A DNA stretch of 51,238 bases from Patescibacteria group bacterium (GTDB lineage: Bacteria > Patescibacteriota > Minisyncoccia > Minisyncoccales > DG-74-3), in assembly GCA_018813025.1 (NCBI GenBank), contig JAHJCL010000005.1, positions 1 to 51,238 on the forward strand, read 5' to 3'. This document shows, one piece after another, positions 28,790-32,306 of this stretch. Below the pieces are notes generated by a model. That model was not told the DNA's origin, made no database searches, and worked only from the letters and a program-made list of their open reading frames with translations. Position numbers and translations under genes: made by a program. Each line of letters opens with the position of its first letter. Position 1 is the stretch's first letter.

Positions 28790-29284
28790 ATGGAAGAAAA
28801 AAAATATATACGTCCCACGTGGGATGAATATTTTCTAAATTTATTAGAACCGTTAGGCAGAAGAGGCACTTGCGATAGAGGTCGCAGTGCGGCGGTTATC
28901 GTGGGTTCAAGCAATACCATCTTGGCTACCGGTTATGTTGGCGCTCCACCGGGACAACCCCATTGCGATGAAGTTGGGCATATGATGAGAACAGTAATTG
29001 ACGAAAAAGGGAACGAGTCCCAGCATTGTGTAAGAACGCTTCATGCTGAAGAAAACGCAATTTTACAATGTGCTAAAGACGGTATAAAGATTGAGGACGC
29101 GACAATTTATTGCAAAATGGTTCCTTGCTACAATTGCGCTATGAGAATTGTGCGAGTCGGTATAAAAAAAGTTGTTGCGCAAAAAAGGTATCATGCCGAC
29201 GAATCGTCTTTAAATTTATTAAAGGATGCCGGAGTAGAATTGGTTGTTATTGATGATACGGTGGAAGAATATAAACAGCAATAA
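28790..29284 (+). CDS. dCMP deaminase (ComEB/deoxycytidylate deaminase family)
   Basis: RPTWDEYFLNL...TCDRGRSAAVIVGSSNTILATGYVGAPPG...HAEENAIL...PCYNCAMRIVRVGI. Confidence 0.88.
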   Translation: MEEKKYIRPTWDEYFLNLLEPLGRRGTCDRGRSAAVIVGSSNTILATGYVGAPPGQPHCDEVGHMMRTVIDEKGNESQHCVRTLHAEENAILQCAKDGIKIEDATIYCKMVPCYNCAMRIVRVGIKKVVAQKRYHADESSLNLLKDAGVELVVIDDTVEEYKQQ

Positions 29285-29293
29285 AATTTATAA

Positions 29294-29866
29294 ATGTCAA
29301 AAATAAGTTGTATAAAAAAAATCGTCGGTTTAACTGGAGAAATGGGGGCAGGTAAAGATGTTTTTTGTCAGTATGTTCAAAAAATATCTAACATGCCCCT
29401 TTTTTGTTTTAAATTTTCCGATTCCCTGTCGGAGGTTTTAAAGATTTTCTTTAATGACGTTACCAGAGAAGACCAGCAATGGCTAGGCATTAATTTAAGA
29501 GAAAGATTTGGTAAGGATATTTTAGCCAAAGCTATAAAAAAAAAGATTGACAGTGTTAATGAGGGATTAATTATATTAAACGGAATAAGATATATAGAAG
29601 AATTCGATATGATTAAAGAAGTTGGAGGCGACGTTATTTATATTACAGCTGACTCTAAAACCAGGTGGCAGAGATTACAGACTAGGGAAGAGAAAAAGGA
29701 CGACAATGTTTCTTATGAAAAATTTTTAGAATTAGATAAAGCATCGACCGAAATTTTAATTCCCGAAATGGGTAAGACAGCTGATTATAAAATTGAGAAT
29801 AGCGGTTCTTTAGATGATTTTTATAAAAAAATTGATAGCGTTTTGGCTAAAATCAATGAAAATTAG
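29294..29866 (+). CDS. P-loop (deoxy)nucleoside monophosphate kinase-like protein
   Basis: IVGLTGEMGAGKDVF P-loop; IILNGIRYIEEFDMI; RWQRLQTREE. Confidence 0.6.
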   Translation: MSKISCIKKIVGLTGEMGAGKDVFCQYVQKISNMPLFCFKFSDSLSEVLKIFFNDVTREDQQWLGINLRERFGKDILAKAIKKKIDSVNEGLIILNGIRYIEEFDMIKEVGGDVIYITADSKTRWQRLQTREEKKDDNVSYEKFLELDKASTEILIPEMGKTADYKIENSGSLDDFYKKIDSVLAKINEN

Positions 29867-29905
29867 GGTTAAAAGTTAGAATAAATAGAAAAATAAAATT
29901 CTGGA

Positions 29906-29932
29906 ACCTCGTCAATTTGACGGGATTTTTTG
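29906..29932 (+). terminator. Intrinsic terminator
   Basis: cctcgtcaatttgacgggatttttt. Confidence 0.8.
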
Positions 29933-29990
29933 TTTCTGTTAGGGTGGGAATAAGATCTTTTATATAAAAATAAGGAAAGGTGATAAAGAA

Positions 29991-31652
29991 TTGAATGAAA
30001 TAATAAAATTACTGGAATCAGGAGTCAATTTGACTAAAGTTTTTCCAGAGCAGTTAGAGATCGCTAAAGGAAACATTGTCTTGCAAAGAGTTCTTCCAAA
30101 AACAGGTATGAAATTACCTTCAGTAGTTAAATTCGATAGAGAAAAACTGCACCAGTCGGGATGGCCAATCAATCCAGGTACCTATAAAGTCAGAGACCCA
30201 ATTAGCCCAGTAGCTGTGATTTGTCCGGCACAAGATTCTGTATTACAGGAGGTAGCCATTTATTATGGCGCAGCTATTTCAGGACCTTGCATTACGCCAG
30301 ATAGAGGGGTAGAGCTAGTAATTACTAACATTGTTTCTAACCCTAATATCCGCTTGATAATTCTAGCAGGCAAAGATAGTGGACATTTAGCCGGAGACGT
30401 AATCTACTGTGTCAACAAATACGGAGTGGATCTAAAGAAAAGAAGAGTTCTTAGGACAAAATCTCCTACAAATCCTTATCTGATGAATTTAAAAGATGAG
30501 GTTATAGCGAGATTCCAGCGACAAGTACAAGTGATCAATTTGCTTGGTGACTACAACGAAGAGGAGACTGAAAGAATAAAATTGGAGCTGGGCCTAGTTA
30601 TCAGATGTTGTTTGCAAGAGCCAGAGAATCCTATTAAACTAATCAACCATAATCTCGGCGACGAATTTTATTTATACGATCCTGGTACAGAAAACCTGGA
30701 ACCGATGATTGTTGATTTAAGCGTCACAGCGATAGGATCTTACTATGAAGGATATGACCGAGTAGGGACTACTATTCACGCTACAACAATAGCTGAAGCT
30801 TATCTGTCACTAATGTCTCATGTTATCAACAAAGGTTCATTTGGTATGCAGGAATCAACAAGGATGGCTTTGAGTGCATTAGCAACTCAGACAGTGATAC
30901 ACAATACAACAGAGAATTTAGTTCCTCCAGGTTGGAGACCTTCCGGTCGGACAACAACCGATAAAGAAGCAGAGGATTATCTCAAGAAGTATAGTGTTTG
31001 GGTTTATCTTTTTCCACTAAGTGATGTTCGCTACGATCCGGATGAGGAAATATTTGTTCCATATATACCGAAGCAAATGGACTATGTCTATGGAGGACGA
31101 CTAACAGCCTACTGGTATGAATTAGCAGATAAAGACGAACAAGAAGCAATCAAAGGTCTGGTAACTGAATTACATCAAAGATTCAGATATAAACTACCGA
31201 CTTTCGAAGATGTAGTCACTTTCTACGAAGAATTGGCCCAGATTCAACGGAAGAGTTTTAATCAACTCTACGATACCGCTAAAGCAGCTAAACTCTGTGT
31301 GAAAGAAGGATTCGGTAATTCCTATCGGCTCTATATGAGTCTGCAAACACCACCGATTGATATCAAAAAAGACCCAAGACGAGCGCATAATCCATGCTTT
31401 GCTTTATTCGAAGTTTACCCACGACGAATAGGTAATACTTGGCAGTTAGATACTTGCCTCTTCCTGAGAGCTCATGACATTCTAGCCTTTCCTGCTAATG
31501 CCAATGGAGGAATTATGATCCAAAAATTCCTTGCTTGGTATGCAGGAATATCTCCCGGGCTTTATGTCCACCACGCTGGCAGTATGGAAGTCTGCGACTA
31601 TCTGCTTCCAAAAGAAATATTAGCTGAACACTTTAGGTTAAGTAAACAATGA
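29991..31652 (+). CDS. MtrA-like (DUF4346-type) domain fused to thymidylate synthase-like domain
   Basis: N-part: DPISPVAVICPAQDSVLQEVAIYYGAAISGPCITPDRGVELVITNIVSNPNIRLIILAGKDSGHLAGDVI (MtrA-like). C-part: NPCFALFEVYPRRIGNTWQLDTCLFLRAHDILAFPANANGGIMIQKFLAWYAGISPGLYVHHAGSMEVCDY (ThyA-like). TTG start with upstream aaggaaagg. Confidence 0.75.
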   Translation: MNEIIKLLESGVNLTKVFPEQLEIAKGNIVLQRVLPKTGMKLPSVVKFDREKLHQSGWPINPGTYKVRDPISPVAVICPAQDSVLQEVAIYYGAAISGPCITPDRGVELVITNIVSNPNIRLIILAGKDSGHLAGDVIYCVNKYGVDLKKRRVLRTKSPTNPYLMNLKDEVIARFQRQVQVINLLGDYNEEETERIKLELGLVIRCCLQEPENPIKLINHNLGDEFYLYDPGTENLEPMIVDLSVTAIGSYYEGYDRVGTTIHATTIAEAYLSLMSHVINKGSFGMQESTRMALSALATQTVIHNTTENLVPPGWRPSGRTTTDKEAEDYLKKYSVWVYLFPLSDVRYDPDEEIFVPYIPKQMDYVYGGRLTAYWYELADKDEQEAIKGLVTELHQRFRYKLPTFEDVVTFYEELAQIQRKSFNQLYDTAKAAKLCVKEGFGNSYRLYMSLQTPPIDIKKDPRRAHNPCFALFEVYPRRIGNTWQLDTCLFLRAHDILAFPANANGGIMIQKFLAWYAGISPGLYVHHAGSMEVCDYLLPKEILAEHFRLSKQ

Positions 31653-31677
31653 GCTTCTTTTTGAAGCTCTTTTTTAT
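31650..31677 (+). terminator. Intrinsic terminator after MtrA/TS-like gene
   Basis: gagcttctttttgaagctcttttttatttt. Confidence 0.9.
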
Positions 31678-31703
31678 TTTTTAAAATTTTGTATAATAAA
31701 ACA

Positions 31704-32306
31704 ATGAAAAAAAATACTTATTCAGGGAAATTTATAGTTTTTGAAGGATTGGACGGTTCAGGGCAATCAACGCAATCAAATCTTCTTAGAAAATTTTTAT
31801 TAGAAAAAGGAAATAATGTGGTTTTGACGAAAGAACCGACATTTAATTCTCAAGCAGGAAAGAAAATCCGTCAAATATTAGATAAAAAAGAAAAAATATT
31901 TCCCCAAAAACTTCAAGAATTATTCGCTGAAGACAGAAAGGAACATCTTGAAAACATTGTTATCCCAGCTTTGCAAAAAGGAGAGGTGGTAATTTCTGAT
32001 AGATATTACTTTTCTTCTTTCGCTTATGGAATGTCAGATGGTTTGGATATAGATTGGTTGATTGAAACAAATAACAATTTTCTTTTACCGGATATAACTT
32101 TTTTACTTAAAGTTTCTCCTGATGTTTGCTTGGAAAGAATTCAAGGGAGGGGTAGTGAAAGAACTTTGTTTGAGGAAAAGAAGAAATTAGAAAAGGTTTG
32201 GAATTTTTATGCAGGATTGCCAAAACGATTTGAGAATATGTTTATCATTGATGGCCAGAAATCAATTGAGGAAGTTTTTGAAAGTGTTAAAAAGATATTA
32301 AATTAA
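31704..32306 (+). CDS. tmk: Thymidylate kinase with Gln in Walker A (GLDGSGQSTQ)
   Basis: GKFIVFEGLDGSGQSTQSNLLRKFLLEKGNNVVLTKEPT; VISDRYYFSSFAY; ATG at 31704 preferred. Confidence 0.87.
   Translation: MKKNTYSGKFIVFEGLDGSGQSTQSNLLRKFLLEKGNNVVLTKEPTFNSQAGKKIRQILDKKEKIFPQKLQELFAEDRKEHLENIVIPALQKGEVVISDRYYFSSFAYGMSDGLDIDWLIETNNNFLLPDITFLLKVSPDVCLERIQGRGSERTLFEEKKKLEKVWNFYAGLPKRFENMFIIDGQKSIEEVFESVKKILN

Follow-up and report, generated by a model that had tools for sequence, protein, structure and literature searches.

An MtrA-like domain joined to a divergent methanogen-type thymidylate synthase domain in a dTMP locus of a Patescibacteria group bacterium

Which one-carbon donor could serve a thymidylate synthase (TS) that carries, in the same chain, a domain of the MtrA type? 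The question is raised by one gene in a stretch of 51,238 nucleotides of DNA from a Patescibacteria group bacterium (contig JAHJCL010000005.1 of assembly GCA_018813025.1; hereafter the window), whose product joins an N-terminal MtrA-like domain to a TS-like C-terminal half. The established role of MtrA is methyl transfer in methanogenesis. Two routes to dTMP have been described, ThyA and ThyX; the biochemistry of methanogen ThyA is little known and the cofactor use of the methanogen-type enzyme is hard to predict (PMC9012536). We found both domains in the fusion, a recurrent linkage of MtrA to TS in its relatives and, by family searches of the window genome (542 kb, 95.7% complete, with about 1 gene in 20 possibly absent from the assembly), no ThyX, no other ThyA (PF00303), no dihydrofolate reductase (DHFR), no serine hydroxymethyltransferase (SHMT), no FolD and no thymidine kinase. 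We lean slightly towards the explanation that the fusion is a divergent methanogen-type TS with a built-in MtrA cofactor domain, that it is the dTMP synthase of the cell and that it receives its one-carbon unit by way of MtrA, independently of DHFR; its catalytic activity, its corrinoid binding, the identity of its donor and the independence of DHFR are predicted properties.

The two halves of the fusion protein

Residues 54-191 of the fusion matched the Pfam family MtrA (PF04208) at E=5e-32, with 111.3 bits over a gathering score of 25, and phmmer reached the MtrA of M. fervidus with cobalamin (5laa) at E=3e-30; the domain shares 42% identity with 5laa. In the alignment, H132 of the fusion falls on His84, which is the cobalt ligand in that structure (the residue numbering was checked on the sequence), and Thr102, Gly106, Val110 and Asn113 retain the cobalamin-pocket residues Thr53, Gly57, Val61 and Asn64. 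In the pocket of 5laa, the positions S/T53, G57 and N64 hold the nucleotide tail of cobalamin and Glu54 is hydrogen-bonded to the cobalt-ligand His84 (PMC4915002). Judging from these residues, the MtrA domain of the fusion probably binds a corrinoid through its His. Compared with known MtrA (PF04208; 5laa, 5l8x, 8q3v), the fusion shares the Rossmann-like domain, the cobalt-site His and the pocket Thr, Gly, Val and Asn, but it is bacterial, has Pro in place of Glu54 and Asp in place of Asn55, and lacks the transmembrane anchor of the Mtr-complex MtrA, the TS domain taking the place of this C-terminal anchor. Against TIGR01111, the profile for MtrA of the Mtr complex, the fusion scored 104 bits, under the cut-off of 249. 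We rejected the idea of a bacterium with an ordinary Mtr complex, given a domain free of an anchor and joined to a TS beside a dTMP kinase gene.

The C-terminal half was matched over residues 354-534 by the methanogen TS profile TIGR03283 at E=8.3e-8, and a profile of the relatives of the fusion reached solved TS structures at E=6e-26. C469 (in NPC), R493 and D496 (both in LRAHD) and N503 (in FPAN) aligned with C146, R166, D169 and N177 of E. coli TS, the YxYGxRL motif is retained, and R446 is probably the counterpart of Arg126, in a stretch aligned by eye. All ten invariant columns of alignment A2 match residues of the fusion, Cys469 included. We take the aligned positions to have the roles of the E. 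coli residues. Cys469 would add to C6 of dUMP, giving the usual Cys-dUMP adduct, while R446 and R493 would grip the phosphate and D496 and N503 the base; the one-carbon unit would be handed over through the MtrA domain and not by a free folate cycle with regeneration by DHFR. What the fusion has in common with methanogen-type TS (TIGR03283) is the profile match, the four aligned residues and YxYGxRL, and it differs by a score under the cut-off, long inserts, Glu and Cys for His207 and Tyr209, and the N-terminal MtrA domain. The bacterial ThyA (PF00303) that works with DHFR shares with it the TS fold and the catalytic Cys, but the fusion gave no PF00303 match and DHFR was not found in the window genome.

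Two AlphaFold2 models of medium confidence were compared with known structures by Foldseek. The full-length model (mean pLDDT 68.9) matched 5laa at E=5.8e-12 and TS structures at E=1.7e-7 and above (prob 1.00), and the model of the TS half alone (mean pLDDT 59.5) matched TS at E=1.3e-9 and above (prob 1.00). The input alignments of the models held TS relatives, so this fold evidence is partly dependent on them; the TIGR03283 match is independent. The recovery of both folds, together with the PF04208 and TIGR03283 matches, bears out a previous sequence-only reading of this locus, which had called the N-terminal half MtrA-like and the C-terminal half ThyA-like. The His that it had placed by eye in the cobalt-ligand region of MtrA is the one aligned here with His84, and its candidate nucleophile Cys, our Cys469, stands in an invariant PC column. 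As for its ThyA motifs, the Cys and the RSxD...N region (C469, R493, D496, N503) held; the third motif is in place, and its ribose-binding pair (Glu533/Cys535) is changed.

That the fusion is a decaying or chimeric gene with no function seems very improbable to us. The branch of its MtrA domain is long (1.52 vs a median of 0.3) and the TS half is divergent with long inserts, which would agree with decay, but the frame of 553 codons is intact and preceded by a good Shine-Dalgarno sequence, the ten invariant A2 columns are all matched and both folds are recognisable.

Relatives of the fusion and the cobalt site

We searched for relatives in 247 genomes of the order to which the window belongs and, with PF04208, in 380 genomes across the phylum. 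The fusion is one of three MtrA-TS architectures; the sequence-only reading had described the fusion correctly and had missed both the relatives that bear DUF4346 and the cassettes with dCTP deaminase (dcd). MtrA was found in 17 of the 380 phylum genomes. In 16 it is fused to TS, two of these fusions being truncated at the end of a contig, and in 1 it is adjacent to TS; these are the window, 15 single chains and one two-gene cassette. MtrA is thus always tied to TS in the phylum sample. Within the order, the 15 other genomes with an MtrA-like sequence (n=247) all have MtrA followed by DUF4346, beside a methanogen-type TS of 257-274 aa and dcd (cassettes L003-L017). In L010, L015 and L017, and also in L026, L036 and L038, dCTP deaminase is in frame with MtrA-DUF4346 in a protein of 505-534 aa with the TS gene adjoining, which is a further tie of MtrA to dUMP supply. 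The same set of dcd, MtrA-DUF4346 and TS was found in Parcubacteria/Paceibacterota and Nealsonbacteria genomes and, with varying gene order, in Aenigmatarchaeota (L031, L040, L041); one Nanoarchaeota contig has a partial set, MtrA-DUF4346 and TS. The TS of this two-gene class has Lys-Thr ('MKTND') for Arg166-Ser167 of ThyA, and His207 is changed to Gln in some (L004, L008, DPANN). Like the fusion, these cassettes tie an MtrA with the cobalt His to TS and pyrimidine genes; unlike it, they keep MtrA and TS in separate genes, have DUF4346, and carry a dCTP and not a dCMP deaminase and a TS with Lys for R166.

The third architecture is that of single chains with the arrangement MtrA*-TS-DUF4346 (L002, L050-L058, L061, L062, L082-L096); a TIGR03283 search of the order gave such chains, of 456-485 aa, in 11 genomes. 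They resemble the fusion in that one chain carries an MtrA-type domain ahead of TS, and are its opposite in two respects, the presence of a C-terminal DUF4346 and the absence of the cobalt His. Their TS motifs are nearly canonical (FRSND, AHIY), and L050 scored over the TIGR03283 cut-off, so that single chains may carry a plain thymidylate synthase annotation. One genome (G330) holds a two-gene cassette (L004) as well as a single chain (L062). DUF4346 was found neither in the fusion protein nor in the window genome by family search. Single-protein scans of viral contigs with the whole fusion, and of phages with its TS half, gave no close relatives, and an alignment-based scan of viral contigs gave none either.

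In the tree of MtrA domains the single chains form one clade (100/100) and the bacterial two-gene proteins another (100/100). The MtrA of the window falls among those of methanogens (100/89 with L018) and outside the clade of single chains. Taken at face value, the window lineage apparently represents a separate joining of MtrA to TS, a placement that is unsure because of its long branch.

The cobalt site distinguishes these classes. T53, E54, N55, G57, N64 and H84 are all retained in 24/24 distinct MtrA domains outside the single-chain class, archaea included (the window is left out of this count). H84 is absent in all 26 aligned single chains, where E54 is mostly Lys and S/T53, G57 and N64 remain; a dcd-MtrA-DUF4346 fragment (L071) is not counted among the 26. 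The conservation that the sequence-only reading had set as a check on its His is complete among the aligned domains outside the single chains and nil within them; the column of Cys469 is invariant. A corrinoid is plausible in the window and two-gene proteins because the ligand His is retained, and it would be bound through this His; the absence of the His from the single chains means that the pairing of MtrA with TS outlasts the cobalt ligand. In the single chains the pocket might hold a corrinoid that has no His ligand, or else a different ligand with a phosphate, for instance a pterin. Corrinoid iron-sulphur proteins bind their corrinoid without a His ligand and are a possible model for the former case.

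Weighing donor and substrate

ThyA converts methylene-tetrahydrofolate to dihydrofolate, which DHFR recycles (PMC9931769). TS was present in 127/247 genomes of the order, and DHFR in 1/26 of those with MtrA-TS (G324, a partial match) vs 75/101 of the other TS genomes (Fisher p=2e-11). This contrast speaks for the explanation that we favour; that the test ignores kinship, the MtrA-TS genomes being spread over 10 families, is the first of several points on the other side. Both methanogens among the control genomes carry a TS and lack DHFR, as do 26 further TS genomes in the order, and the contrast may in part stem from methanogen-type TS as such; independence of DHFR may belong to methanogen-type TS generally and not to MtrA. 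The absence of a gene from the window genome can be an assembly gap. The TS half is highly divergent, with long inserts; it scored 32 bits against TIGR03283, under the curated cut-off of 174.55, as a single sequence it reached the TS chains of the PDB at E=0.7 by phmmer, and PF00303 matched nothing in the fusion or the window genome. Its ribose-binding His207 and Tyr209 are replaced by Glu533 and Cys535 ('GSMEVC'), the motif being in place and the side chains changed. On the MtrA side, Pro103 occupies the position at which Glu54 would hold the cobalt His, and the loss of H84 from the single chains counts against a general corrinoid mechanism. Finally, no close relative of the fusion was found in the 247 genomes of the order or in a scan of 85k species.

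When 17 MtrA-TS genomes were tested individually, ThyX was found only in G371, and SHMT together with FolD clearly in G199, G300 and G528. The sequence-only reading had proposed a search of the genome for thyA, thyX, folA and folD; with no other ThyA and no ThyX, DHFR or FolD detected, the fusion stays the sole dTMP-making candidate found there. Separately, we observed stand-alone divergent TS of 220-320 aa (L075-L079 and other matches in f162 and f163) in genomes with neither DHFR nor a detected MtrA. A genome of the family of the window (G322 C4:15669-17000) has a 547-aa frame with two ThyX-like stretches, and G293 and G296 have frames of 355-357 aa with split ThyX matches.

The changed ribose-binding pair could indicate that the TS-like half acts on another pyrimidine nucleotide, for instance UMP or dCMP, and that dTMP comes from the host. 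His207 and Tyr209 of TS contact the deoxyribose 3'-OH; the Cys at the Tyr209 position is found in the fusion alone in alignment A5, and in 120/247 genomes of the order no TS was matched at all. We regard this as distinctly unlikely, with N503 (the uracil-type Asn) and the other TS residues retained, with Glu at the 207 position in single chains of the f56 family too (L091, L092, L094, L095), and with a dCMP deaminase and a dTMP kinase adjoining while no thymidine kinase was found in the window genome.

A weightier alternative is an ordinary methanogen-type TS, in which a methylene-pterin (tetrahydrofolate, or tetrahydromethanopterin scavenged from a host) supplies carbon and hydride, and MtrA is a scaffold or a pterin- or nucleotide-binding accessory that no longer needs a corrinoid. 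We give it a little less than an even chance, which makes it almost as likely as a TS fed through MtrA. The single chains speak for it, having kept S/T53, G57 and N64 and lost H84 (26/26) and E54, with TS motifs close to canonical and one member over the TIGR03283 cut-off. It leaves unaccounted for, however, the full His-Glu network of every two-gene member and the His of the window, and it needs a reductase to recycle dihydropterin; DHFR is absent in 25/26 MtrA-TS genomes.

At the other end, the reaction could be corrinoid-dependent. Once Cys has added to dUMP, the carbanion at C5 would take a methyl group from MtrA-bound methyl-Co(III) to give dTMP and Co(I), with no pterin oxidised. With methyl-Co(III) as the direct donor, neither hydride nor DHFR would be needed. 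This fits the cobalt His of the window (H132) and of the 24/24 domains outside the single-chain class, the nearness of the window MtrA to that of methanogens, the union of carrier and acceptor in one chain, and a genome with no detected DHFR, SHMT or FolD. We nevertheless hold it to be unlikely, since the whole single-chain class has lost the His, the window has Pro for Glu54, its genome has no DUF4346 and no partner is known there that would methylate MtrA (no search for one was made), and no precedent was found in the open-access papers searched. The likelihoods given here overlap with that of a TS fed through MtrA, because the corrinoid reaction is one form of it. The proposal of the sequence-only reading, an alternative dUMP methylation or an unusual TS linked to a one-carbon carrier, is partly supported, by the two domains, the aligned His and Cys, the lack of any detected other ThyA, ThyX or DHFR and the recurrent pairing; the single chains without His and the Pro of the window speak against a general corrinoid mechanism.

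The locus and what the pairing means

The features of the locus are collected in Table 1. The list of open reading frames and the Pfam and NCBIfam names agree with the sequence-only reading that four genes lie consecutively on one strand, and the dCMP deaminase and dTMP kinase among them support a dTMP role for the fusion. The same reading had called the locus compact; its gene order stands, but a single four-gene operon is not established, as terminator-like hairpins lie on either side of the fusion gene (5 such hairpins were observed in the region vs 2.2 expected). The first two genes are 9 bp apart and the upstream hairpin comes after both. An internal ATG at 31704, the position given in the sequence-only reading, is a possible start of the dTMP kinase gene. 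We set aside the possibility that the window is a contaminant or was misbinned, because its neighbours (gyrB-, nusG-, rplK-, gatB- and miaA-like, by eye) look like ordinary bacterial housekeeping genes.

Table 1. Genes, domains and signals of the locus, in coordinates of the window
Feature	Coordinates	Strand	Details and evidence
dCMP deaminase, ComEB-like	28790..29284	+	164 aa; Pfam dCMP_cyt_deam_1 E=2.9e-21; TIGR02571 E=2e-33, under its cut-off
P-loop NMP-kinase-like protein	29294..29866	+	190 aa; AAA_18 E=4e-10
Terminator-like hairpin 5' of fusion gene	29908-29924	+	consensus match alone
Shine-Dalgarno AAGGAAAGGTGAT of fusion gene	29972-29984	+	upstream of TTG start
MtrA-TS fusion gene	29991..31652	+	553 aa; TTG start
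MtrA domain, ~aa 54-197	30150..30581	+	Pfam, phmmer vs 5laa, Foldseek
His132 codon, aligned with cobalt ligand His84	30384..30386	+	alignment to 5laa
TS-like domain, ~aa 256-540	30756..31610	+	TIGR03283, alignments A2 and A5, Foldseek
Cys469 codon, aligned with TS nucleophile Cys146	31395..31397	+	invariant PC column in alignments A2 and A5
Terminator-like hairpin at fusion-gene stop, ahead of dTMP kinase	31651-31669	+	consensus match alone
dTMP kinase	31689..32306	+	205 aa; TIGR00041 E=1.4e-50, over cut-off; Thymidylate_kin E=1.7e-49

In the open-access papers that were covered (subscription papers and preprints lay outside this scope) we found nothing that connects TS with MtrA or with a corrinoid, and nothing on DUF4346. 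MtrA homologues exist in bacteria and in non-methanogenic archaea (PMC4915002), and the pairing with TS would assign a role to them. Some Paceibacteria, a class of Patescibacteria, live on methanogens (PMC9763046, PMC9600506), which are for them a possible source of corrinoid and pterin. The recurrent link of MtrA to TS, seen where DHFR is not detectable in the genome, offers a direct and testable handle on the cofactor question of methanogen-type ThyA. It would bear on DNA-precursor synthesis in ultra-small symbionts, and its recurrence in relatives hints at a route to DNA precursors that does without DHFR. A corrinoid-dependent TS, if true, would be a third dTMP chemistry beside ThyA and ThyX, in small symbiotic bacteria and DPANN archaea, in which dihydropterin would not be formed and DHFR would not be required.

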